A stretch of 64,000 nt of DNA from Paenibacillus polymyxa M1. GTDB taxonomy: Bacteria; Bacillota; Bacilli; Paenibacillales; Paenibacillaceae. The first letter of the stretch is position 1. Each line of letters begins with the position of its first letter. The stretch covers positions 3,258,501 through 3,322,500 of the forward strand of contig NC_017542.1 of NCBI RefSeq assembly GCF_000237325.1. Direction: 5' to 3'. A program made the position numbers and the translations under genes. Of this stretch, positions 7,027 through 38,147 are shown piece by piece. The notes under the pieces were generated by a model. It was not told where the DNA came from. It searched no databases and saw nothing but the letters and a program-made list of their open reading frames with translations.

Positions 7027-9687
7027 CTAATCCCGGTTGTGACGTCCACGATTGGAGTTTGAATGACCGTTGGATGTGCCTTCCTGACTTCCATCCATAA
7101 TAGCACCTGTGGTAGATGCATCTGTATTTTCTGGATTGGTCATAGTATTTTCATCAGTTATACCTGAATCCGGTGTAGTCGTCTGACCATTCCCCGTATT
7201 TGTATCGTTTCCGTTCCCAAAATTGTCGTTACTGTTGCCTGTGCCTCCAGTACCATTTCCATTGTTACCTCCAGGAGACGTTGGAACTTGGTCAGTACCA
7301 GTACCGTTATCAGTACCTCCAGGAATCGTATTCCCCTGGTCTGTGCCGTTCTGACCGTCTATATTCTCGCCATTATCCGGTACGGTTTCATCCTGATTAG
7401 GATCGTTTCCTGGCTGCGGATCTATCGGAGTAGTCTCTGCCGGAATTTCTACACTAATCGTATTGGAAGCTGCGGATTCTTTACCATCCGCTCCATAAGC
7501 TACGACATAGTATTGATACGTTTTTCCAGCTACAGGAGACGTATCTTCACCACTCGTGCCTCTCATCGCCTCCATAATCGTCCGGAAGCTTCCTTCGGAA
7601 GACTCTTTACGATAAACACGGTATTGTACATTGTCTCCCTCTGCCGCATTCCAAGACAACGATACAATTTGGGTATCCTGACTATAAGACCCGCTCAGTC
7701 CGCTAGGAGCGGTGGCCTGAACCGGCTCTTCTGGCTTCTCTTCAACCGGTGGTTCATATCCCTTCGGCTCGCTAAATTGCGTTACCGGATGCCCCTTGAG
7801 AGCTTCACCCATGACCCTTCCGAAGAAGGCTGCCGACTGTCCACTGTAGTTTCTCAACATATGCTTACTGTCCGGCTTGTCATACCCCATCCATACCGCT
7901 CCGGTATATTCCGGCGTATAACCGACAAACCAAATGTCCCGGTTACCACTGTTGCCGCTGATTCCACTTTGGGTCGTACCCGTTTTACCAGCTACAGGCC
8001 AGTCAATACGTGCTTTGCGACCTGTACCGCTATTGACCACATTTTGCATCATTTTTGTCATTTCATAAGCCGTTTTCTCACTCATAACAGATTTGGATTC
8101 CTCATTATGAGTATAAACCACTTGATCATCACTATTGTTAATTTGCTTAATGGAGTAAGCCTTTTGGAATTGTCCCTTATTGGCAAAAGCGCTATAGGCC
8201 TGCGCCATTTCGAGGGTATTTGTTCCTTTGCTTAACCCCCCCAATGCGATAGCAAGCGAGTGATCATTTTTGTCCATCGGTATGCCTACGCTCTCGGCGA
8301 ATTGAACCCCTTTTTCCACACCGATTTGGTTCAACAACCATACAGGTGGTATATTTTCAGACTTCGTAATGGCATCGATCATGCTGATGGTCGAAGAGTA
8401 ACCATGCAAGTTTTTCGGACTGTATCCGTTAAAGCTCTGCCGTTCGTTACTCAAAGGAGTATCTATCGTAAATTTACCGGATTCAAGAGCTGGCGCATAG
8501 GCTACAAGCGGCTTAAAGGCCGATCCTGGCTGTCTGCGGCTCTGTGTCGCACGATTGAAGGTTCCCTTTTTGTAATCCCGTCCGGGTGCCATCGCGGCAA
8601 TACCACCTGTTTGGTTGTTAATAATAACCATAGAGGCTTGAACAGGCTGATCGTCTGGACTCTTTTCGAACATATCATCATCTGCCATCGCTTGGTCCAG
8701 CGCATTTTGAGCCTGAGCATCCATTGTCGTATGAATTTTATAACCACCAATAATCAGATCATTGCCGCTGACTCCTGGCAAGGCATCCTCTGCCTCATCC
8801 ATGACATATTCCATAAAATTTTGATACTTTTGCACTTTTTCCGGTTGTTTGTAATCGTAATTTATAGCCTTGGCTTCTTCCATTTCCTGCTTGCCAATCA
8901 TTCCCTGCTCAAACATCAGCTGGAGAACCACTGCACGCCGGGCCTTTGAGTTTTCCGGGTTACTGATCGGATTATACTTGGATGGCCCTTTCGGAATTGC
9001 TGCTAGTGTAGCGACTTGCCACAACTTTAATTCGTTTAAGTCTGACACACCAAAATAGCCTTCCGACGCTGCCTTAATTCCAGAATATGAGCGTCCAAAC
9101 CAAATCCGATTCAGATATAACGTAATAATTTCATCTTTAGTCAAATTCCGCTCCAGCGCCATTGCGATGGATACCTCTGTCGCTTTACGGAAAAAGGTTT
9201 TGTCACGTGTCAAAAACAAGTTTTTGGCCAACTGCTGAGTCAGCGTACTGCCGCCCTCCACCGCAGAACGAGCAACGATATCCTTCACTGCCGCCCGACC
9301 GATAGACCAAATATCAACTCCTTGATGCTCCATAAAACGCTTATCCTCAGTTGCGATAAAAGCTTTTTTGAGCAACGGTGGAATTTCTTCACTTTTCACT
9401 GGGTCACTTTTTTGCACAGACAGCTCACCCATGAGCACACCGTTGCGGTCATACACCTTTGATGTCTCGTTCACTGTAATTTTGTCCTTGTTGGCTTTGT
9501 AGATTTTTTCGCCATTAACCATGACAAATAAATAACCACCAAGTGCGCAAAATATGGCTAATGCTGCTGTAATAAACAGCGTCCACCCAACTCGCTTACC
9601 TGTTATTTTCTTTTTCTTGCCCTTCGGCTTCTCTTTAGATGTGTTTCTATTGCGATTGCCGGATCTGGACAATGAATCGTTTGGCAT
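7027..9687 (-). CDS. ponA: Class A penicillin-binding protein 1 (bifunctional glycosyltransferase/transpeptidase)
   Basis: This enzyme polymerises lipid II into glycan strands and cross-links them outside the membrane. The 886-residue protein has a Lys-rich cytoplasmic N-terminus, one membrane segment at about 34-56, a GT51 domain with EDKRFMEHQGVD and EGGSTLTQQLAKN, and a transpeptidase domain with SxxK in PGSAFKPL, SxN in KSENIPP and AGKTGTTQ. A fibronectin type III domain (SGSYSQDTQIVSLSWNA onward) and a tail of about 110 residues rich in Gly, Asn, Thr and Asp follow. B. subtilis PonA has the same order including an FN3 and low-complexity tail, so I use that symbol, with some risk that the species carries paralogues. 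RBS AAAGGGAG precedes ATG 9687. A strong terminator follows. Confidence 0.93.
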   Translation of the reverse strand: MPNDSLSRSGNRNRNTSKEKPKGKKKKITGKRVGWTLFITAALAIFCALGGYLFVMVNGEKIYKANKDKITVNETSKVYDRNGVLMGELSVQKSDPVKSEEIPPLLKKAFIATEDKRFMEHQGVDIWSIGRAAVKDIVARSAVEGGSTLTQQLAKNLFLTRDKTFFRKATEVSIAMALERNLTKDEIITLYLNRIWFGRSYSGIKAASEGYFGVSDLNELKLWQVATLAAIPKGPSKYNPISNPENSKARRAVVLQLMFEQGMIGKQEMEEAKAINYDYKQPEKVQKYQNFMEYVMDEAEDALPGVSGNDLIIGGYKIHTTMDAQAQNALDQAMADDDMFEKSPDDQPVQASMVIINNQTGGIAAMAPGRDYKKGTFNRATQSRRQPGSAFKPLVAYAPALESGKFTIDTPLSNERQSFNGYSPKNLHGYSSTISMIDAITKSENIPPVWLLNQIGVEKGVQFAESVGIPMDKNDHSLAIALGGLSKGTNTLEMAQAYSAFANKGQFQKAYSIKQINNSDDQVVYTHNEESKSVMSEKTAYEMTKMMQNVVNSGTGRKARIDWPVAGKTGTTQSGISGNSGNRDIWFVGYTPEYTGAVWMGYDKPDSKHMLRNYSGQSAAFFGRVMGEALKGHPVTQFSEPKGYEPPVEEKPEEPVQATAPSGLSGSYSQDTQIVSLSWNAAEGDNVQYRVYRKESSEGSFRTIMEAMRGTSGEDTSPVAGKTYQYYVVAYGADGKESAASNTISVEIPAETTPIDPQPGNDPNQDETVPDNGENIDGQNGTDQGNTIPGGTDNGTGTDQVPTSPGGNNGNGTGGTGNSNDNFGNGNDTNTGNGQTTTPDSGITDENTMTNPENTDASTTGAIMDGSQEGTSNGHSNSNRGRHNRD

Positions 9688-29478: not shown

Positions 29479-30348
29479 CTAATAGATCGTCATGGTTGTA
29501 CGCGGCACCCTTTCAAGCAAACCACTACCATACATTTCCCGAAATGGCTGCTCTTCCATATGGATATAACCGATATAACAGCCACATTCTTTCATCCGGC
29601 ACGGACGCTGAGCACTCAGCCCCTCCAGACCGTCTCTGTACAGGTGCCCAATCACACGTCGATCCTGATAGCAGTGTTTTACTCGCCCGTCACCTTGGAC
29701 GTAGAATACATCTTCTCCCGCGCGACATGCTCGTCCCTGGCTGCTATAATCCTTTAAATTCCATTGAAAATAGGGATCTATCTCAGTTAATTCGGCAACC
29801 TCGGCATCCGTATAATAATGTGGTTGGTCCTTGTAGGCGTTGATCCACATATAAACTTCTTTTGGAAGTTGCGCCCGCAAGGAACGAATAGCCGGGAACG
29901 CCTGTCTCAATCCAACTGTACCGACACTATAGGAAATGCCAAGTTCATATAGCTTCATCGCCTGCGATATAAAAGCTTGCTCTTTGGTTTCTCCAGGATG
30001 ATAAGTAGCCCACAGCGCAGCCGTATCTGGATTTAGTTCGTTTGTCCAATCCAGCTTAGCCGATAGATTCGTCTGTACCGCCACTTTTTCCACATGCGCC
30101 ATATGGGAGAACTCAATCATAGCCTTACGATACCAGGAATGAATCAAGGCTTCTCCGTACGGATTAAAAAAAATGGAGAGCTGGTGCCCCAAAGCACCCT
30201 GCTCCCGTACCCAATCAGCAAAACGCTCCAACTGCGCCCGATCCTTGTTTAACGTTTCCCGACTATCGACGTTTTTACTGAATGGGCAGTAAGGGCAAGC
30301 ATAGTTGCACGAGGTCAACGAACCACGATAATATAAGGTCGATCTCAT
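29479..30348 (-). CDS. STM4011-family radical SAM protein
   Basis: The 289-residue protein binds a [4Fe-4S] cluster through the CxxxCxxC motif in CNYACPYCPF near residue 13. Its C-terminal third is Cys-rich in a SPASM/twitch-like way (GRACRAGEDVFY, HCYQDRR, CRMKECGCYIG), so a second cluster is likely. The ATG at 30348 overlaps the upstream STM4012-family stop as ATGA; the longer in-frame frame to 30546 only runs inside that gene. The substrate is unknown. It is last in the five-gene operon, before a bidirectional terminator. The family name comes from the Salmonella locus and is recalled, not searched. Confidence 0.88.
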   Translation of the reverse strand: MRSTLYYRGSLTSCNYACPYCPFSKNVDSRETLNKDRAQLERFADWVREQGALGHQLSIFFNPYGEALIHSWYRKAMIEFSHMAHVEKVAVQTNLSAKLDWTNELNPDTAALWATYHPGETKEQAFISQAMKLYELGISYSVGTVGLRQAFPAIRSLRAQLPKEVYMWINAYKDQPHYYTDAEVAELTEIDPYFQWNLKDYSSQGRACRAGEDVFYVQGDGRVKHCYQDRRVIGHLYRDGLEGLSAQRPCRMKECGCYIGYIHMEEQPFREMYGSGLLERVPRTTMTIY

Positions 30349-31772
30349 GCGCCTACATATCCTTCCATACGCTCGCGTACTGATGTGGAGATCATCCAGT
30401 CTCCAATCGCATCGGAATAGGCCATTCCTTCCTCCGTAAGTCGAAGCGTGCCCTCCTCGACCACAGCCATACCCGATTCCAGCAGCAGCGACATTCCTGT
30501 AAAATCGTCTTCCAGGCATACACCAAAGCGCTCTGCATAGGCACATAGCTCCAAACCTTCCCGATGAAGAAGCGCCTTCAGGATAAAACGTCGCTTACGC
30601 TCATCCGCATTTAAAATAAAGCCGTAGTCAGCCAGATCATGACGCTCCGCCGCCACATAATCCGCGATAATACTACGTGTAGCTGCTGTACTGACACCAT
30701 ACCGGCTGGCATAGTGTACATCGCGTGTATAAGAGCGTGCACCACACCCCAGTCCAGCCATGCCCTCCTCCTGGCAACTGTAGGGTAAAAGCTCTTTGCT
30801 AGATGTACCCTCATTTTTAGCAAAACGGCGCATGGAATATTGTACATATCCTGCCTGTTTGAGTCGTTCGCGCGCTACTTCATACAAGCTGAGGCGAATA
30901 TCATGATCCAGCCCAGTATAGCCAGGCTTTAAAATCGTATTTTCACGAATGTATAACGGGTAAAGAAAAATCTCTCCTGGCGAATAGGACAGGGCTTCCT
31001 CGAGAGAATACAGCCAGGTTTCCACCGTTTGACCAGGCAGACCATAGATCAGATCCACGTTGAGCAAAGGAAAATTGTATTCTACCAGCCGCTCAAGTGC
31101 TTCTCTAACAAGCTTGGGCTTCTGAGGTCGGTATATGGCGGCACTTTCTGATTCCACAAAGCTCTGGATTCCCATGCTAACACGATCTGTACCGCGGCGC
31201 TTGAGCACCTCCAGCCTATCCTCAGTTACAGTATCGGGAGAGGTTTCGACTGAAATAGAAGCTCGCTTGGGGTCCAATCCCATAATATTTTCCGCAATGT
31301 CAAATAAACGCTCCACCAAAGGAGCCTCCAATAAGGTCGGCGTACCACCGCCAATCGCAAAACGTGAAAAAGGCCGACCGCCCATAATTGGGGCCCATTG
31401 CCGAGCTTGTCTTTCTAGCGCATCCACATACTCCTTGTGCACATCCTGACGCTTATCCGGTAAAGTGAACAGGTTACAAAATCCACAGCGAGCTGCGCAA
31501 AACGGTATATGCATATACAAAAAATAGCTTTCCAACTCTTCTTTCTCCCACAATTCCTGCAATGAGAGCGGTGTATCGAACGAACGATAGGCCGTTTTAT
31601 GCGGATAAGAGTACAGATAGGAGCGATAGGGAGCTTCTCGGATCGTACGTGCCCATTCTACAGGAGTATCCGGCCACTGAAATCTAGTCGTTACTAATTT
31701 TGTGTCCATTCCCGGAGAAGTTTGGGTTGCTGCGCCCATCGGATGTAGGTGATTCAGATTCATGGCTTTCAT
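30345..31772 (-). CDS. STM4012-family radical SAM protein (HemN/HemW-like)
   Basis: A 475-residue protein with the HemN/HemW-type radical SAM barrel: MHIPFCAARCGFCN holds CxxxCxxC, then AIGGGTPTLL, VSMGIQSF and DLIYGLPGQT. A winged-helix-like C-terminal domain (LKALLHREGLELCAYAERF) follows. The HemW heme-binding HNxxYW segment is replaced: the residues before GLGCGARSYT read LLPYSCQEEGMA. This is therefore probably not a heme chaperone or coproporphyrinogen enzyme. The start is ATG 31772, 5 bases after AAGGAG. Coupled to the STM4011-family gene. Confidence 0.88.
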   Translation of the reverse strand: MKAMNLNHLHPMGAATQTSPGMDTKLVTTRFQWPDTPVEWARTIREAPYRSYLYSYPHKTAYRSFDTPLSLQELWEKEELESYFLYMHIPFCAARCGFCNLFTLPDKRQDVHKEYVDALERQARQWAPIMGGRPFSRFAIGGGTPTLLEAPLVERLFDIAENIMGLDPKRASISVETSPDTVTEDRLEVLKRRGTDRVSMGIQSFVESESAAIYRPQKPKLVREALERLVEYNFPLLNVDLIYGLPGQTVETWLYSLEEALSYSPGEIFLYPLYIRENTILKPGYTGLDHDIRLSLYEVARERLKQAGYVQYSMRRFAKNEGTSSKELLPYSCQEEGMAGLGCGARSYTRDVHYASRYGVSTAATRSIIADYVAAERHDLADYGFILNADERKRRFILKALLHREGLELCAYAERFGVCLEDDFTGMSLLLESGMAVVEEGTLRLTEEGMAYSDAIGDWMISTSVRERMEGYVGA

Positions 31773-31841
31773 TTCTGCTCCTTCCTCGCGCTGGATTGGA
31801 TTCTTGATCATTTATCAGTGCAAACTACTTTTCTTTTTGTC

Positions 31842-32624
31842 CTACAGTATAAAATCGCGGTAAGGCACATTCCACACTACCTCATGCGCCAGACGATGCC
31901 CTTCGTAGCCGTCTTCGCCATAAGCTGTACCATGATCGGAAAAAGCCATGCAAAACGTCTTGCCACGCTTACGCAAAGCATCAAACAAGCGTCCAAGTTC
32001 ACCATCCACATACCGCAAAGCTGCTCGTTGAGACTCTACTGAATCTTTTGAAGAGCCCTTTACAAAATAATGATTAGGCCCATGGATTGCTGATACATTC
32101 AGAAACAAAAACAAGCGCTGTGCAGGGTCTGCCTTTTCCAACAGCTTCAAGGCATGATTCACCTGATGCTCTGTTGAACGAGGGTTGGTAACGCCAAAGT
32201 TCATGCGCCAGTAGCTCTCTTGAAAATATCCGGGCAGCACCTTGGCCAGCTTGTTCTTCTTCGTGAAAAAAATAACGCCACCGATACAGATCGTCCGATA
32301 GCCCTCGTTCTCCAGCCCGGACACAATGTCCGGAGCATCGAACAGCCAGGTATGTGGATGCGTTCGCAATCCCGTATCCTTTGTGTGAAACAGCCTGATA
32401 TGTGAAGCCTTATCTGTATTGGCCGGAGTCGGTAAAAATCCGCCAAAAAAAGCATGGTGTGCAGCATATGTAAAGCTCCCTGGTGTATGGCGCTTTTCCC
32501 ACGACCCGGAGCCGCATAAATTCGAGCAGTTTTCTTCCTCCAGCTTGGCTACGTCATAACGCAGGGTATCCAGTGTAATCATGACAATATCATGAGAGCC
32601 GACAATTTGATTCATATCAGTCAT
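31842..32624 (-). CDS. STM4013-family hydrolase (alkaline phosphatase superfamily)
   Basis: The 260-residue protein shows the metal-binding features of the alkaline phosphatase/sulfatase fold. Asp19-Thr20 in MITLDTLRYD provides a ligand and the likely nucleophile, and SDHGTAYGEDG near the C-terminus gives the Asp-His metal pair. It has no signal peptide, so it acts in the cytoplasm, unusual for sulfatases. Whether it cleaves or transfers a phosphate, sulfate or phosphonate group is unknown. Its ATG overlaps the stop of the STM4014-family gene by one base (TAATG). Confidence 0.87.
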   Translation of the reverse strand: MTDMNQIVGSHDIVMITLDTLRYDVAKLEEENCSNLCGSGSWEKRHTPGSFTYAAHHAFFGGFLPTPANTDKASHIRLFHTKDTGLRTHPHTWLFDAPDIVSGLENEGYRTICIGGVIFFTKKNKLAKVLPGYFQESYWRMNFGVTNPRSTEHQVNHALKLLEKADPAQRLFLFLNVSAIHGPNHYFVKGSSKDSVESQRAALRYVDGELGRLFDALRKRGKTFCMAFSDHGTAYGEDGYEGHRLAHEVVWNVPYRDFIL

Positions 32625-33958
32625 TATCTGTCTTTCCTTTCCAAAACTACGCTCCTATTAGCAAGGTGCAGCATTTCCCATTCATATGGATTCCAACCCT
32701 GATACTCAACCCGATACAGTAAATCACCGAACGGATTAACATCCAATACATAGGGACGACCACCGTGAGCCGGAACGAGCACATCCAGTCCAGCAACCAT
32801 AGATGACGGAAAAACCCTCATGGCGGCTATTGCAGTATGCTGGACCGATTCTACCGTATTCTGTGGTAGTCCGGCTTCCTCCAGCAAGAGTCGCTCATTA
32901 CGCAAATGTAGATTTGTAATGGGGCTGTGACTCAAACGTAAAACCGCATGACAAGCTTCTGATTCACACACGAGTTGACGCACATCATAAACACGTCCGT
33001 TCAGGGTCGCTTTGGGAATCCAGCGTTCCACATGTACCCCTTCCAAACATAGCCAGTTAAGGATGGCATGAATGTCCTGCTTGTCTGTATAACGACGCAA
33101 TCGTCCGGCATTATAATACACACGCTGTCCGTGTATGATCTCTGTTCCAATCGTAGTTACCGCCAGCTCTGCATGTGTCTGGGGATGTACCTGATATGCC
33201 ATAACACCAGAAGCACCTGACCCGCAAAATATTTTCACAAATACGCGGTGAAACCCACTCTCTTTCATAGCTGTATGCAGATCGACAGCATCACGAAATG
33301 CACCGCCTGAAGCTGTAAGCACAGGCGGGACCCTGATGTCTGCCTGGTCTAATACGGCGCTACAACGCCGTTTGTCAAACATGACGGCTACTTCCGCAGG
33401 ATCGTTCATCCAGCGCGACGAAGGCCAGAGCCGATCTACTTCATGCCGCAGCCAAGCCAGCAGACGGCAATAGCCCCGGAACCATTGTGCCGGGTGCCAA
33501 ATGCGACCATGCTGCTCCTGCAAACGGCGCGCTTCTGCCGCCAGTATACCTGTGTCATGTGCCCATTCCGGCCATGGCAACAAAGAATCGTCTCCCTCGG
33601 CATCCGGGGCGCCCAGAGCAATCAATTCCCGCTCTACCTCAAAGTTTTCGCCCGGTGCATCCAGACGTAGCAATGGACCTCTGTCCACCCGCCCTGCCAG
33701 TAATTGATCAATGCTCTCTCGCACATGGACACTGCCATTCACGCTATCTTGCGCAGCTTGTGCAGCTATCCTGACCATCAGTTCGCTCAGACTGTGCTTC
33801 TCTCGAATGGCCCCCAACACATCTGTATAGGAAACCTCCAGAGCTGGCGGAAGCATTAATCTGCTTCGTGCTTTCTGCAGCCCCGTAGTTCGACGATTCC
33901 CCGAATTACCGAACAAGATAAACGGCTCGTTGACATTACTATCCCACATCTTCATCAT
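32624..33958 (-). CDS. STM4014-family ATP-grasp-like protein
   Basis: A 444-residue cytoplasmic protein. The C-terminal half reads like a RimK-type ATP-grasp: MFDKRRCSAVLDQADIRVPP (central domain entry), HRVFVKIFCGSGASGVMAY (ATP-binding lysine and glycine loop) and VLDVNPFGDLLY (the Asp-Asn metal site). The N-terminal ~190 residues are not recognised. ATP-grasp enzymes join a carboxylate to an amine or thiol, so ligation is the likely chemistry, but no substrate can be named. RBS GAGG precedes ATG 33958. It is the second gene of the operon. Confidence 0.85.
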   Translation of the reverse strand: MMKMWDSNVNEPFILFGNSGNRRTTGLQKARSRLMLPPALEVSYTDVLGAIREKHSLSELMVRIAAQAAQDSVNGSVHVRESIDQLLAGRVDRGPLLRLDAPGENFEVERELIALGAPDAEGDDSLLPWPEWAHDTGILAAEARRLQEQHGRIWHPAQWFRGYCRLLAWLRHEVDRLWPSSRWMNDPAEVAVMFDKRRCSAVLDQADIRVPPVLTASGGAFRDAVDLHTAMKESGFHRVFVKIFCGSGASGVMAYQVHPQTHAELAVTTIGTEIIHGQRVYYNAGRLRRYTDKQDIHAILNWLCLEGVHVERWIPKATLNGRVYDVRQLVCESEACHAVLRLSHSPITNLHLRNERLLLEEAGLPQNTVESVQHTAIAAMRVFPSSMVAGLDVLVPAHGGRPYVLDVNPFGDLLYRVEYQGWNPYEWEMLHLANRSVVLERKDR

Positions 33959-34025
33959 AGAGCCGCCTCACTTTTATTCTTTTTAATTTTAAATTCAATC
34001 CGTTTTAGAAATCCATTGGAGCAAA

Positions 34026-34868
34026 TTACTCTGTCAGTGATGGATAGCGCCAATCATCTTCTTCATCTGCTTCTTGTTGATCTTCTACGTTCACAGATAA
34101 ACCTGAGTTTTTCCAGCGTTCCATCATTTCACTAGACATATAATGATAGCTCAAATCCAGATGTTTTAGCCCTTTTATACTTTCACTAGCCAGCAGCGCT
34201 TCTGCACCTTGATCAGACAATGTACCTTGTGAGAGATCTAGCACTTCCAGTTGTCCAATCACAGGGGCATTAGCAGCAGCAATGGCAATTTCATCCTGTA
34301 TCTCACTGTCTTTGAGTCCCAAGTATGTAAGTTTGGGAAAAGGATTGCTGTCTAAAAACGGTAAAATATCTTCCAGTTTACCGTCAAAACCATAATCCTC
34401 GACACCCAAATACAGCTCCAGCTTGCGCAGTTCAGGCAGTTCGGCATTACGGATTTGCTGAAGGACGCTCACAGGCAGACCACCACAAATAATAACCAAT
34501 TCTTGAAGATGATTATGGCGAAGTGGTTCCAAGCTCAGGTCTTGGCTTCCTTTAATATGTAAGGATTCAAGCTTTGGAAACGCTTCTAACAGCGGCGACA
34601 GATTCGTTTGGTTAATCCATGATACCTCACACTCATCATATTCCATATCACCAATAAACAGCTTGCGTACCTTAGGAAATTGATCTTTAAGCTTCACTAA
34701 CACCGGTATAAAATCATCTGGTGAGTTTTCATAGGCGCCTCCCCAATCTCCAATGATCAGATCCGTAACTTGGGCACTCTCCGGCTTGGCTGCCAGTTCC
34801 TCAATAGATTTAGCCATCGTTTGGCCATTCTCATAAGCTTCATAATCTACAACCAATTTCACTTCCAT
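34026..34868 (-). CDS. STM4015-family leucine-rich-repeat protein
   Basis: The 280-residue acidic protein consists largely of leucine-rich repeats. Examples are RKLFIGDMEYDECE, LESLHIKGSQDLSLEPL, LRKLELYLGVEDYG, LEVLDLSQGTLSDQGAEALL and LKHLDLSYHYMSSE. There is no signal peptide. It probably serves as a protein-binding scaffold or specificity factor. First gene of the operon, with GGAGG ahead of ATG 34868 and a candidate promoter further up. The gap of 67 bases to the ATP-grasp gene holds no short ORF. Confidence 0.85.
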   Translation of the reverse strand: MEVKLVVDYEAYENGQTMAKSIEELAAKPESAQVTDLIIGDWGGAYENSPDDFIPVLVKLKDQFPKVRKLFIGDMEYDECEVSWINQTNLSPLLEAFPKLESLHIKGSQDLSLEPLRHNHLQELVIICGGLPVSVLQQIRNAELPELRKLELYLGVEDYGFDGKLEDILPFLDSNPFPKLTYLGLKDSEIQDEIAIAAANAPVIGQLEVLDLSQGTLSDQGAEALLASESIKGLKHLDLSYHYMSSEMMERWKNSGLSVNVEDQQEADEEDDWRYPSLTE

Positions 34869-34924: not shown

Positions 34925-34954
34925 AGTCTATCCTATTCTACCAATGTTCGTCAA
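34925..34954 (-). promoter_or_regulatory. Candidate promoter of the STM4015-4011 operon
   Basis: On the minus strand TTGACG (34954-34949) and TAGACT (34930-34925) are 18 bases apart, about 57 bases ahead of the first gene. Confidence 0.45.
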
Positions 34955-35091: not shown

Positions 35092-36558
35092 TTATTGGGT
35101 AATTGTAATCGGTGAGTTATCGGTCAGCAATGCCAGATTATTTACGATCACATTCTCTTCCTTGCTCAAGCCACTGGTAATGAGTGTTTGTGAACCTGTC
35201 GTTTGAACAGTCTTCACTTCCTTGCGTTTCGCATGGTCGCCGTTTACTACATATACATATTCTTTACCTTGATCCTGTTGCACTGCCGCAGTAGGAATAA
35301 CAATACCTTCTTGCGCATTGGCAGCGACAAAGCTGATATCAGCCAACATGCCGGATTTCAGTTTCATATCTGGATTGGCTACTGAGATTTTTACAGGATA
35401 GCCTTTTCCGCTTGCATCCAACGGGCTTACATTTTTGACTGTACCTGTTGTTACAATGTTAGAAGCTGCAACACGAACCTGTACCTTGTCACCTGCTTTT
35501 ACATTGTTGATCTGTTCCGCAGGGACATAGATCAATGTATTGACCGTACTCAAGTTAGCAATGACTAGCGCAGGAGACTGAGCGGATACCATTTCGCCCA
35601 CTTCTGCATTTTTCGTACCCACAATACCGTTGATCGGTGATGTAACAACGGTGTCATCCAATGCATCCTGAGCAATGTTTACATTCAGTTGTGCCTGCTT
35701 AAGAGATTGTTGGCTAGACTCAATGCCAGCCGTATTTTGAGATACTTTAAGTTGATTTTGTGCATTGCTGTAGCCGCTGTTGGCATTACTGTAGCTATTT
35801 TTTGCTGACTCATAGCTGTTGCGGGCTGTAGTTAGGGCCTTTTGAGCTGCTATCAATTGATCTTTTGCATTAGCCTGCGCATTTTGTGCATTATTATAAG
35901 CCGCTTCTGCATTCACAACTGCGGTTTTTGCTTGTTCTAATTGTGCTTGGGTGCTTGCACCAGCATCAAACAGACTTTGTGTACGTGTTACATTCTTTTG
36001 TGCATCTGCCAAAGCTTGCTGTGTTTGTTTCACCGTATTGGCTGCCGAGGAGACACTATGTGTCGCTTGTTCTACGGCTGTAGTTGCTTGATTAATAGCC
36101 CCCTGAGCCTGATTGATTGCGCTTTGGGATTGAATCACACCGCTTTTGGACTGCACTAAGCCCGAAGTTGCTTGAACCATCGTTGATTCATGGGATGCTT
36201 GAGCGGTGCTTACGCCTGCTGCTGCGGCGGCGGCGGCGGCACGGGCTTTTGCAACATTGTTACGCATATCCTTATCGTCAAGTTTGAATAGTACTTGGCC
36301 CTTTTTAACCTCAGAACCAATATCCACAGGCAGCTCAACCACTTTACCGCCTACTTTAGGCACAATATTGACTGTTTCCGAAGGTGTTACCGTACCTGTA
36401 TAAATATTTCCCTGTCCGATAACCCCCTGCTGTGCTTGACTAATTTTAACCGGTACGACCATGTCCTGAGCCGCTCCGCTATTACTGGAGCAGCCTGCCA
36501 GCACTGCGCCGCCGAGGACTAAAGCCGCTAATGTACTTTCTACTCTCAATATTTTCAT
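35092..36558 (-). CDS. HlyD/RND-adaptor-type efflux lipoprotein
   Basis: The 488-residue protein has a signal peptide with lipobox LAGC (about residues 19-22), a biotinyl-lipoyl half (VELPVDIGSEVKKGQVLFKL), then a very long coiled coil of about 170 residues. The coil repeats Ala, Gln, Ser and Asn heptad-like units (QSQSAINQAQGAINQATTAV). The second lipoyl half (SPINGIVGTKNAEVGEMV) and beta-barrel and membrane-proximal domains follow. An alanine run at the start of the coil is coded by a GCN repeat (about 36216-36242). The start is ATG 36558 after AAAGGG; upstream in-frame codons overlap the pump gene. It is the third gene of an operon with a DHA2 pump and a shorter adaptor. Confidence 0.88.
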   Translation of the reverse strand: MKILRVESTLAALVLGGAVLAGCSSNSGAAQDMVVPVKISQAQQGVIGQGNIYTGTVTPSETVNIVPKVGGKVVELPVDIGSEVKKGQVLFKLDDKDMRNNVAKARAAAAAAAAGVSTAQASHESTMVQATSGLVQSKSGVIQSQSAINQAQGAINQATTAVEQATHSVSSAANTVKQTQQALADAQKNVTRTQSLFDAGASTQAQLEQAKTAVVNAEAAYNNAQNAQANAKDQLIAAQKALTTARNSYESAKNSYSNANSGYSNAQNQLKVSQNTAGIESSQQSLKQAQLNVNIAQDALDDTVVTSPINGIVGTKNAEVGEMVSAQSPALVIANLSTVNTLIYVPAEQINNVKAGDKVQVRVAASNIVTTGTVKNVSPLDASGKGYPVKISVANPDMKLKSGMLADISFVAANAQEGIVIPTAAVQQDQGKEYVYVVNGDHAKRKEVKTVQTTGSQTLITSGLSKEENVIVNNLALLTDNSPITITQ

Positions 36559-36629
36559 GATAATTCCCTTTCTTTCTGTCCGTGGAAATAATGTAAGCCA
36601 TCCAGTCGATATTTTTGTATTTCTCTTTA

Positions 36630-38147
36630 TTAAGCTTCCGGCTGTGTCTTTGCTTTCTTCCTCTGAATAAACAAAAAGATGAGTGGAATCGTGCAAAACA
36701 GCGGTATAGATGAAATGAGGAACGTATCCCCAATTCCTCTCGATGTAGCATCCAGTGTGATTAAACTACTTATGGATGACATCCATGAGCTACCCAATGT
36801 CGCTTGTAGCGTATGAGCCGAGTCTTGTGTAATGGACTCCGAAATTTGCTGGGCATGGGCAGCTGAACGGCTTTGCATAATGGCGGTCAGTACCGCAATC
36901 GCCATAGATGCAGCCACCGTACGTACCAGATTGGACGCTGTAGACGCATTGGCTACCTTGCTCGGATGAACAGCATTCATGCCGACCGTGGACAATGGCA
37001 TCATGCAAATACCAATTCCCAGACCCCGTAATGCCATTACGGTTTCCAACCAGGCATGCGAAGTATCTGGCGTAAGCTGATGAAGATGATAGGTCATAAA
37101 GCTGGTTAACGTCAGGCCCACAAGTCCCAAAGGCACAATGCCGAACTTATCGAACAGCTTCCCTGCAATAGGCATCATCGCCGCCATGGCAATGGCCTGT
37201 GGAATGAGGATAATACCAGTATCAATCGGTGACACGCGCTGAATATTTTGCAAAAACAACGGTGTTAGGAACGTTCCACCGTACATCCCCATCATGACCA
37301 GACTGGAGGCGATAACACTAATCGTATATTTTGAATTCTTGAATAATGAAATTTCAATTACAGCATTATCTTTGCCGCTTTCTACATAGATGAGAAAGAC
37401 AAGTGCCCAGAAAGAAATAAACAGCAGAGATACAATCCCAAAAGAAGTCCAGCCATCACGCTGGCCGTTTGTCAGTGCGTACAAGAGTGTTCCTGCACAG
37501 GTTGCCGCCAGTAAAAATCCTGGCAGATCAAACGGTTTCGGCGTAACCTTAGGCGGCTCCTTGATGAGAAGGATGACCATTAAAATGGCAAATAAAGCAA
37601 CCGGCAGACTGACAATAAACAAGAAACGCCAGTTAAACCATTCAATTAAGTAGCCACTCAGCGTAGGCCCTATAGCTGGTGCGGCCATTGCAGCGATCCC
37701 CCATATACCAAGGGACATCCCGATTTGTTCACGCGGCATAATTTTGTAAATAATCGTCATACTCAGCGGCATAATGACACCGCCGCCCAGACCAGCCAAT
37801 ACACGCGCTGCAATCAGGGAAGAATCACTCCATGCAAAAATACATATTCCTGTCCCCAGCGAGAACACGCTGAGCGCAAGAATCAAAAACTTTTTGTATC
37901 CGATACGCTGCTCCATATATCCGGTAATCGGGACGATTACGCCGGATGCAAGCGTGTAACCTGTAATAACCCACTGAATACGTGTCGTCGTTGACCCTAA
38001 ATCCGTCGTCAATCGTGGAATGGCGACATTGATCAGACTGTTGTTCAGAATGGCGACAAAGGCGCCTAAAACGATAGCAAAAAAGGCAAGCCAGCGTTCT
38101 TTGGAAGAATCTGTCGAAGGAGCAGCAGCAGTTTCATTGGCAGCCAC
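36630..38147 (-). CDS. DHA2-family MFS drug efflux pump (EmrB/QacA type)
   Basis: A 505-residue membrane protein with about 14 hydrophobic helices. It carries the MFS motif region after helix 2 (GYMEQRIGYKKFLILAL), motif C-like GIAAMAAPAIGPTLSGYL and the DHA2-type opening FVAILNNSLINVAIP. Such pumps export lipophilic cations or drugs by proton antiport. RBS AAAAGGAGGGG precedes ATG 38147. It lies 15 bases behind an EmrA-like adaptor and ahead of a lipoprotein adaptor, so it probably works with one or both. Confidence 0.92.
   Translation of the reverse strand: MAANETAAAPSTDSSKERWLAFFAIVLGAFVAILNNSLINVAIPRLTTDLGSTTTRIQWVITGYTLASGVIVPITGYMEQRIGYKKFLILALSVFSLGTGICIFAWSDSSLIAARVLAGLGGGVIMPLSMTIIYKIMPREQIGMSLGIWGIAAMAAPAIGPTLSGYLIEWFNWRFLFIVSLPVALFAILMVILLIKEPPKVTPKPFDLPGFLLAATCAGTLLYALTNGQRDGWTSFGIVSLLFISFWALVFLIYVESGKDNAVIEISLFKNSKYTISVIASSLVMMGMYGGTFLTPLFLQNIQRVSPIDTGIILIPQAIAMAAMMPIAGKLFDKFGIVPLGLVGLTLTSFMTYHLHQLTPDTSHAWLETVMALRGLGIGICMMPLSTVGMNAVHPSKVANASTASNLVRTVAASMAIAVLTAIMQSRSAAHAQQISESITQDSAHTLQATLGSSWMSSISSLITLDATSRGIGDTFLISSIPLFCTIPLIFLFIQRKKAKTQPEA

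Follow-up and report, generated by a model that had tools for sequence, protein, structure and literature searches.

Two enzymes of the ATP-grasp class provide the points of comparison for the locus described here: LysX, and RimK, which acts on a folded protein, ribosomal protein S6, at its C terminus and is not known to have radical S-adenosylmethionine (SAM) partners. According to two reports on the LysW/LysX pathway (lysine and arginine in Thermus and archaea; vazabitide), the carrier is acidic, attachment takes place at its C-terminal Glu, and the intermediates are processed while attached (PMC10433800, PMC9303977). Glu54 of LysW is the site of the covalent link and an E54A mutant of ArgW requires arginine (PMC10433800), and the acidic carrier of LysW-type systems is paired with basic enzymes (PMC9303977). 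A further case from the latter source is that of the pearlins (3-thiaglutamate, 3-thiahomoleucine): a gene-encoded carrier bears the growing small molecule at its C terminus, and a radical SAM methylase takes part in one instance (PMC9303977). The locus considered here is the five-gene STM4011-STM4015 set of Paenibacillus polymyxa M1, located on the minus strand of a 64,000-nucleotide stretch (the window; contig NC_017542.1, positions 3,258,501 to 3,322,500) inside a 6.23-Mb genome.

STM4015, a leucine-rich repeat (LRR) protein, carries an acidic arm that ends in Glu, as LysW does. The combination of an acidic STM4015 with a basic STM4014, an ATP-grasp protein, parallels the charge pairing of LysW-type systems, although STM4012 and STM4013 are not basic. 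The candidate carrier is nevertheless an LRR protein and not a small zinc-binding LysW, the putative ligase STM4014 is only remotely related to LysX, and the accompanying enzymes are radical SAM proteins and a member of the alkaline-phosphatase clan, in place of the kinase, reductase, aminotransferase and peptidase of the LysW/LysX pathway. Pearlin systems differ by their aminoacyl-tRNA-dependent PEARL enzyme and their protease; none of the five proteins matches such families. The set is not a LysW/LysX pathway by homology, since it departs from one in carrier fold, tail motif and ligase family as well as in the other enzymes; by analogy, it is proposed to work like one.

No function is given for the STM4011-STM4015 families in the literature searched, most subscription journals lying outside the search, in keeping with a first-pass annotation of this DNA, to which the Salmonella locus behind the family names was not known to be characterised. 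Neither the family names, the neighbouring family DUF6745 and the model accessions, nor the combination of LRR and radical SAM with RimK or ATP-grasp, led to a paper in that literature. Single STM401x loci appear in the tables of a sigma-54 binding study and of a positive-selection study.

The five-gene set and its inheritance

The genes occupy the span 34868-29479 completely, in the order STM4015, STM4014, STM4013, STM4012 and STM4011, and the five adjacent products all exceed the curated NCBIfam cut-offs of their families. STM4015 (280 amino acids (aa), 34026..34868), the proposed carrier or substrate, reaches 372 bits for a cut-off of 275 with NF038076; the values are 460 for 175 (NF038074) in the case of STM4014 (444 aa, 32624..33958), the proposed ligase of the tail Glu, and 407 for 250 (NF038075) in that of the hydrolase STM4013 (260 aa, 31842..32624). 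The HemN-like radical SAM protein STM4012 (475 aa, 30345..31772) obtains 594 for 380 (NF006067), and the second radical SAM protein, STM4011 (289 aa, 29479..30348), 408 for 200 (NF038073). The first-pass annotation, which had read five genes in one direction for an LRR protein, an ATP-grasp-like protein, an alkaline-phosphatase-fold hydrolase and two radical SAM proteins, was thus exact as to span and content. It had also counted three of the four junctions as overlapping or nearly so, but only two overlap: STM4014/STM4013 by one base (TAATG, 32626-32622) and STM4012/STM4011 by four bases (ATGA). STM4015 and STM4014 are separated by 67 nt, STM4013 and STM4012 by 69 nt from the STM4012 start at 31772, or by 30 nt if the upstream ATG at 31811, where the open reading frame (ORF) begins, is used. 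The start at 31772 is the likelier one, displaying a good ribosome site by eye and agreeing with the annotated start of the plasmid homologue in record L012. That of STM4011 is likely at 30348, the listed 355-aa ORF opening further upstream.

Among 99 genomes related at levels between genus and order, the window genome included, STM4011 is present in 56 and STM4015 in 56, the genomes being identical row by row. The 13 plasmid records containing STM4014 are likewise the 13 containing STM4011, and homologues of these two proteins, carried by an annotated plasmid of Paenibacillus, are 81% and 90% identical, respectively, to those of the window. Broken copies of STM4011 or STM4015 within an otherwise present operon were observed in three Paenibacillus genomes (G011, G057 and G059), which is what an accessory system lost now and then would show.

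A genome scan with STM4011 yielded at least 527 related stretches, the best 80 of which, mostly from Streptomyces, were kept and combined with 8 plasmid stretches into a collection of 88 loci; 83 of these extend at least 5 kb upstream of STM4011, and a gene was taken as present above 100 bits. All five genes are found in 78 of the 83 loci, and the canonical order on one strand is observed in 73 of these 78. The exceptions among the 83 consist of a locus with an STM4013 fragment and no detected STM4012 (L013), one whose LRR gene has diverged to 64 bits (L023), one where STM4014 and STM4011 lie about 9 kb apart with STM4012 and STM4013 undetected (L050) and two where only two of the five genes were detected (L078 and L097). 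The pairwise distances of the five proteins, calculated over 16 non-redundant loci, correlate with r values of 0.58-0.91 (each Mantel p <=0.001). The five genes are an accessory set travelling as a unit. Homologues mostly occurring apart, which had been named beforehand as the outcome that would speak against a set held together, were not seen.

The L013 stretch, from a B. finegoldii plasmid, holds its STM4013 fragment at 7587-7965. In Streptacidiphilus anmyonensis (L097, genome G112) and Plesiocystis pacifica (L050, genome G108) the set is split or dispersed, and the STM4015 found on other contigs keeps its Glu end.

Judging from record titles, STM4011 is presumably present in ten phyla: Actinomycetota, Pseudomonadota, Planctomycetota, Myxococcota, Chloroflexota, Verrucomicrobiota, Armatimonadota, Deinococcota, Bacteroidota and Bacillota. 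The contigs from Armatimonadota (L087) and Verrucomicrobiota (L027) are too short to show all five genes. The STM4014-STM4011 stretch was found in 154 of 5426 complete E. coli genomes, always on the chromosome, and the operon lies between ompL and typA in the one E. coli region viewed as well as in the Salmonella record. The Salmonella record, labelled 'plasmid 3' (L014, NZ_LN868945.1), shows typA, glnA, glnL, glnG and hemN around the operon; these genes being usually chromosomal, the replicon may be mislabelled or chromosome-derived. In a 249-genome sample of the phylum of Janthinobacterium, the centre genome alone passes the STM4011 cut-off, which indicates a widespread but sparse system; one distant STM4011-like match in these genomes lies in an unrelated setting. 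Scanning of virus contigs gave no match with the STM4011 sequence of the window and one with an alignment query. A contig of the virus collection (L156) contains all five genes beside a probable integrase, recognized by eye.

The C-terminal glutamate of STM4015

In the window, the acidic linker and C-terminal tail of STM4015 extend over 34029..34085 on the minus strand and end with WRYPSLTE-COOH, the Glu codon being located at 34031-34029. A C-terminal Glu is present in 119 of the 121 closed STM4015 ORFs scoring above 100 bits, the exceptions being a fragment in a second frame of the broken L083 copy and a paralogue from Herpetosiphon that continues to AVSEYLQD. This end persists after removal of redundancy, in 15/15 sequences at <50% identity, 26/27 at 60% and 58/59 at 70%; in the 15 representatives the last position holds 3.4 bits versus 0.1-1.4 at positions -8 to -40. 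The tail follows the consensus R[YF]xAV[SGA]E and stops at Glu, its composition in the 116 of 119 ORFs counted being R (105), Y/F (109), V/T/I (109), A (100), V/L/I (113), S/G/A/T (114) and E (115). It is preceded by an acidic linker of varying length: in 116 of the 119 proteins the end lies 41-54 residues beyond the final LRR motif that can be recognised, and the remaining 3 lack such a motif.

Nine further copies from outside the main set all end in Glu; three of them come from close Paenibacillus relatives and the others from L156 (Bacteroides-like), E. coli, Embleya, Nonomuraea (two copies) and Deinococcus. The LRR protein found beside STM4014 in two planctomycetes, Gemmata (L023) and Fimbriiglobus (L147), also ends in Glu after an acidic stretch, although it falls far short of the family cut-off (NCBIfam model, 62 and 44 bits; our own profile, 64 and 45), and generic LRR ORFs taken for comparison, two from the Gemmata and Fimbriiglobus genomes and one from another genome, end in F, F and A. 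Three Plesiocystis copies terminate with SVGE; two of these lie on a different contig, where the 16 kb read contain no enzyme gene. Such an end is missing from the other four proteins of the set, bar a moderate conservation in STM4012. A strict DNA pattern of the tail searched in 11 genomes produced five matches, four at STM4015 and one without a stop codon, a weak test that missed most of the known tails of these genomes as well.

STM4015 proteins have a median isoelectric point (pI) of 4.4 and a net charge of -31 (n=119), for a pI of 8.95 in STM4014 (n=84). The nearest solved relative of the family profile is an uncharacterised Bacteroides protein (2ra8, 1.5e-105). By eye, the STM4015-like proteins of Bacteroides (L013, L156) and Gemmata (L023) possess an additional N-terminal domain before the LRR that looks WGR-like.

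With a single enzyme set per locus, the number of LRR genes is one in 44 of the 88 loci and two in 33 (including L083, where a single broken copy was scored twice); one locus has four and another six, and 9 have none above 100 bits. Both the conserved Glu end and the frequent sharing of one enzyme set by several LRR paralogues point to STM4015 as a carrier or substrate, and not to the mere binding scaffold envisaged by the first-pass annotation. The absence of a short precursor ORF, also put forward there, holds for the 67- and 69-nt intergenic gaps, into which none fits, but overlooks STM4015, which itself looks like a substrate.

Relationship of STM4014 to ATP-grasp ligases

The likeness to the LysW/LysX pathway was written down before the structure search with STM4014 was performed. 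In the resulting PDB profile search LysX (1uc8) ranked first (1.7e-5) and RimK next, and the same order was obtained with a profile built from 23 diverse STM4014 members. When these 23 members were compared to NCBIfam at E<=1, matches were found to rimK_fam in 17 (best 4.9e-7), LysX_arch in 15 (4.7e-6), MptN in 15 and CofF in 11; these are the most frequent foreign families for STM4014 and represent ligases named for glutamate or lysine biosynthesis. A stretch of the form D(L/I)RV..V..R.S...ITN is common to STM4014 and LysX. STM4014 is nevertheless not a member of the LysX/ArgX family, its LysX_arch matches being remote and its own family NF038074 fitting far better, and it departs from RimK in that the window protein fails rimK_fam even at E<=1. 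The earlier label 'ATP-grasp-like' is fair for the family, other members of which match RimK- and LysX-type models, but the window protein itself stays below every Pfam ATP-grasp cut-off (best PF02655, 17.7 vs 23.2). At the sequence level, the STM4014 family is a remote relative of the RimK/LysX-type ligases.

Radical SAM proteins and hydrolase

Active-site residues were counted in the copies above a score limit, namely 89/89 for STM4011, 84/85 for STM4012, 81/83 for STM4013 and 84/84 for STM4014, the input copies scoring above 200-250 bits. STM4011 displays CX3CX2C and five further Cys (8 Cys in all) in 89/89 and STM4012 displays CX3CX2C in 83/84, the remaining one being gapped. Thr52, Asp230, His231 and His243 of STM4013 are found in 81/81, and Lys242, Asp325, Arg327 and Asp392 of STM4014 in 84/84, with Glu311 in 83/84. 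Given these conserved catalytic residues, STM4011 to STM4014 look like working enzymes; a member lacking its catalytic residues across the family, the second outcome named beforehand as contrary, was not seen.

The STM4012 profile aligns with HemN (1olt) from position 13 to 414 of 440 (7.8e-53); a radical SAM methyltransferase, NocN (9p2u), aligns over 40-311 (4e-33). STM4012 remains under the curated HemN cut-off (148 vs 325 bits), as well as under those of HemW and HutW, and has its own family NF006067; a HemN coproporphyrinogen oxidase identity was rejected on that basis. The SPASM/twitch-like C-terminal part of STM4011 carries the Cys pattern CX12GX4C ... CX4CXC and is matched by SkfB (6efn, 8.3e-5), which recalls the SPASM-domain peptide maturases. 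Its scores stay below the cut-offs of Pfam SPASM (15.9 versus 21.5) and of the SkfB model (15.2 versus 300 bits), and its Cys count is presumably lower than that of a full SPASM pattern.

In Salmonella and E. coli, a Cof-type HAD hydrolase gene overlaps the end of STM4011 (L014 8834-9568, L157 6947-7645), and the Bacteroides STM4011 proteins (L013, L156) are extended at the C terminus by a stretch that looks HAD-like by eye. A HAD-type protein is a possible sixth component in these two lineages, enterobacteria and Bacteroides.

STM4013 matches the Sulfatase family PF00884 (7e-11), and its nearest solved relatives by profile are a nucleotide pyrophosphatase/phosphodiesterase and sulfatases. Formylglycine sulfatases have the nucleophile motif Cys/Ser-x-Pro-x-Arg. 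The corresponding sequence in STM4013 is GSFTYAAH, and a formylglycine sulfatase matured by STM4011 in the manner of the anaerobic sulfatase-maturating enzymes was discarded, since Thr52 and not Cys or Ser stands at the nucleophile position in 81/81 STM4013. An anti-phage defence system was also rejected, as PADLOC gives no support across the set: PDC-M51A matches STM4012 (7.5e-11, residues 183-294) and pVip matches STM4011 (0.002), with none for STM4013, STM4014 or STM4015. The set belongs to the STM4011-STM4015 families; it is neither a pair for sulfatase maturation nor a HemN, nor is it a defence system listed in PADLOC. No peptidase or exporter family of NCBIfam or Pfam is matched by any of the five proteins.

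Proposed mechanism and alternative explanations

The proposed mechanism can be summarized as follows. STM4015 would serve as the carrier or substrate, its LRR body bearing a flexible acidic arm that ends in a free Glu. Using ATP, STM4014 would activate a carboxylate of this terminal Glu and link it to an amino acid through the latter's amino group; Glu or a Glu analogue is the likeliest amino acid. The attached group would subsequently, in a presumed order of steps, be remodelled through radical chemistry by the HemN/NocN-like STM4012 and the SPASM-type, SkfB-like STM4011, and STM4013, an alkaline-phosphatase-clan protein with a Thr nucleophile, would make or break a phosphoester; the added HAD-type protein of enterobacteria and Bacteroides may handle phosphoesters alongside it. 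The finished group would stay on the LRR protein as a modification or a built-in cofactor. The product is probably retained in this way, since several LRR bodies would be needless for a mere biosynthetic carrier and no peptidase is found among the five proteins. The sequences support the carrier role of STM4015 and, less strongly, the ligase type of STM4014; coupling of an amino acid to the tail Glu by STM4014, followed by remodelling by the radical SAM proteins and the hydrolase, is in our judgment about evenly poised between right and wrong. The small-molecule or peptide modification pathway suggested by the first-pass annotation is supported and stays the best reading.

A number of observations weigh against this mechanism. 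On the carrier side, the STM4015 tail reads RYxAV[SGA]E and not EDWGE as in LysW, the Herpetosiphon paralogue extends beyond the Glu, and a fixed C-terminal residue is not unique to STM4015, as the neighbour families DUF6745 and 'hyp100' (a protein of about 100 aa) also have one. On the ligase side, the kinship of STM4014 to LysX and RimK is remote, with per-stretch E values of 0.15 to about 9 that become significant only when summed per protein, and biotin carboxylases follow closely (1.8e-4; 4.3e-4 with the 23-member profile). Within E<=1, the window protein is unmatched by models of the RimK or LysX type and picks up only D-Ala ligases (0.04-0.06); the strongest Pfam models for the 23 members are ATPgrasp_ST (14/23, best 3.7e-10) and YheCD (12/23), with RimK in 3/23; and the GG after the common TNLxL motif is not kept (TNLHLRN in the window). 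STM4014 alone is clearly basic among the modifying enzymes, the median pI being 7.7 for STM4011, 6.1 for STM4013 and 5.6 for STM4012. Finally, a gene resembling LysZ, LysY, LysJ or LysK is absent from the five-gene set.

The conserved end might be only a docking or recognition tag, STM4015 organising enzymes whose substrate is a free metabolite. Protein contacts are commonly made through LRR proteins, several LRR paralogues could yield several assemblies, and the charge complementarity of STM4015 and STM4014 suits docking as well as catalysis. We hold this explanation unlikely: a tag for docking has no need to coincide with the last residue, and the likeness of STM4014 to ligases acting on a C-terminal Glu would be a coincidence. 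A RimK/S6-like poly-glutamylation, in which Glu residues added by STM4014 would mark the LRR tail for regulation and the radical SAM proteins and hydrolase would perform a linked but separate task, has in its favour that rimK_fam is the most frequent foreign family among the 23 STM4014 members at E<=1 and that ribosomal protein S6 receives Glu at its C terminus from RimK. It is considered very unlikely, in view of five genes that are kept together in 78/83 loci and co-diverge, which argues for one joint task and against separate ones.

STM4015 could also be a precursor resembling those of ribosomally synthesized and post-translationally modified peptides, with the LRR body as an outsized leader sequence and a core peptide made up of the final 6-10 residues. 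This core would be crosslinked or ligated (as in graspetides, pyrroloquinoline quinone (PQQ) or mycofactocin) and then cleaved off for use as a small molecule or cofactor. Such a role is compatible with the relationship of the SPASM-type STM4011 to SkfB, with the conserved short segment formed by the aromatic residue at -6 (109/116) and the terminal Glu, and with the fact that graspetides, too, are made by ATP-grasp ligases. The tail is, however, nearly invariant and not varied, and no peptidase or exporter family is represented among the five proteins. Position -6 is occupied by Tyr in 98 proteins, Phe in 11 and Ser or Asn in 7 (n=116), so that Tyr chemistry is not obligatory and PQQ- or mycofactocin-like reactions on Tyr lose ground. 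We regard a precursor of this kind as quite unlikely.

Genomic surroundings

Two same-strand efflux-type genes (35092-36696 and 36630-38147) end 223 nt upstream of the operon, contrary to the earlier statement that no transporter lies beside it. They were named as an RND adaptor and a DHA2-type MFS protein by synteny with the annotated record L012 (plasmid pHD02), where the order is the same. A terminator-like hairpin on the minus strand (35036-35009; 12-pair stem and T run) sets them apart from the operon and is taken as its 5' limit. A candidate sigma-A promoter, TTGACG-18-TAGACT, was found on the same strand at 34925..34954 by consensus scan, at a frequency no higher than chance (8 sites versus 8.7 in shuffled sequences). 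The 3' side is occupied by a short convergent gene with DUF2653.

In other genomes, a DUF6745 gene lies beside the operon in 52/89 loci and the protein of about 100 aa (GEVTGHxH and HEEH motifs) in 53/89, the pair being present in L015-L019, L160 and many Streptomyces loci. Both proteins have conserved C-terminal ends (T/A and D, respectively) and both are matched by phage families without assigned function. They were rejected as further Glu-tail substrates on account of these ends.

Significance

The five families are catalogued, and the set occurs across very different bacteria, Salmonella and some E. coli among them. The C-terminal Glu of STM4015 narrows the puzzle of five enzymes to one precise question, namely whether the last residue is modified and whether STM4014 is responsible. 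The mechanism proposed above may, as a tentative extension, represent a new class of carrier-protein chemistry, in which Glu-armed LRR proteins would be the site where a protein-bound, amino-acid-derived cofactor or modification is assembled by an ATP-grasp ligase dedicated to them, two radical SAM enzymes and a hydrolase active on phosphoesters, with one set charging up to six different LRR proteins. If STM4014 does modify the last residue of STM4015, LRR proteins would rank beside LysW and the pearlin peptides among gene-encoded carriers, and their pathway would include two radical SAM steps.

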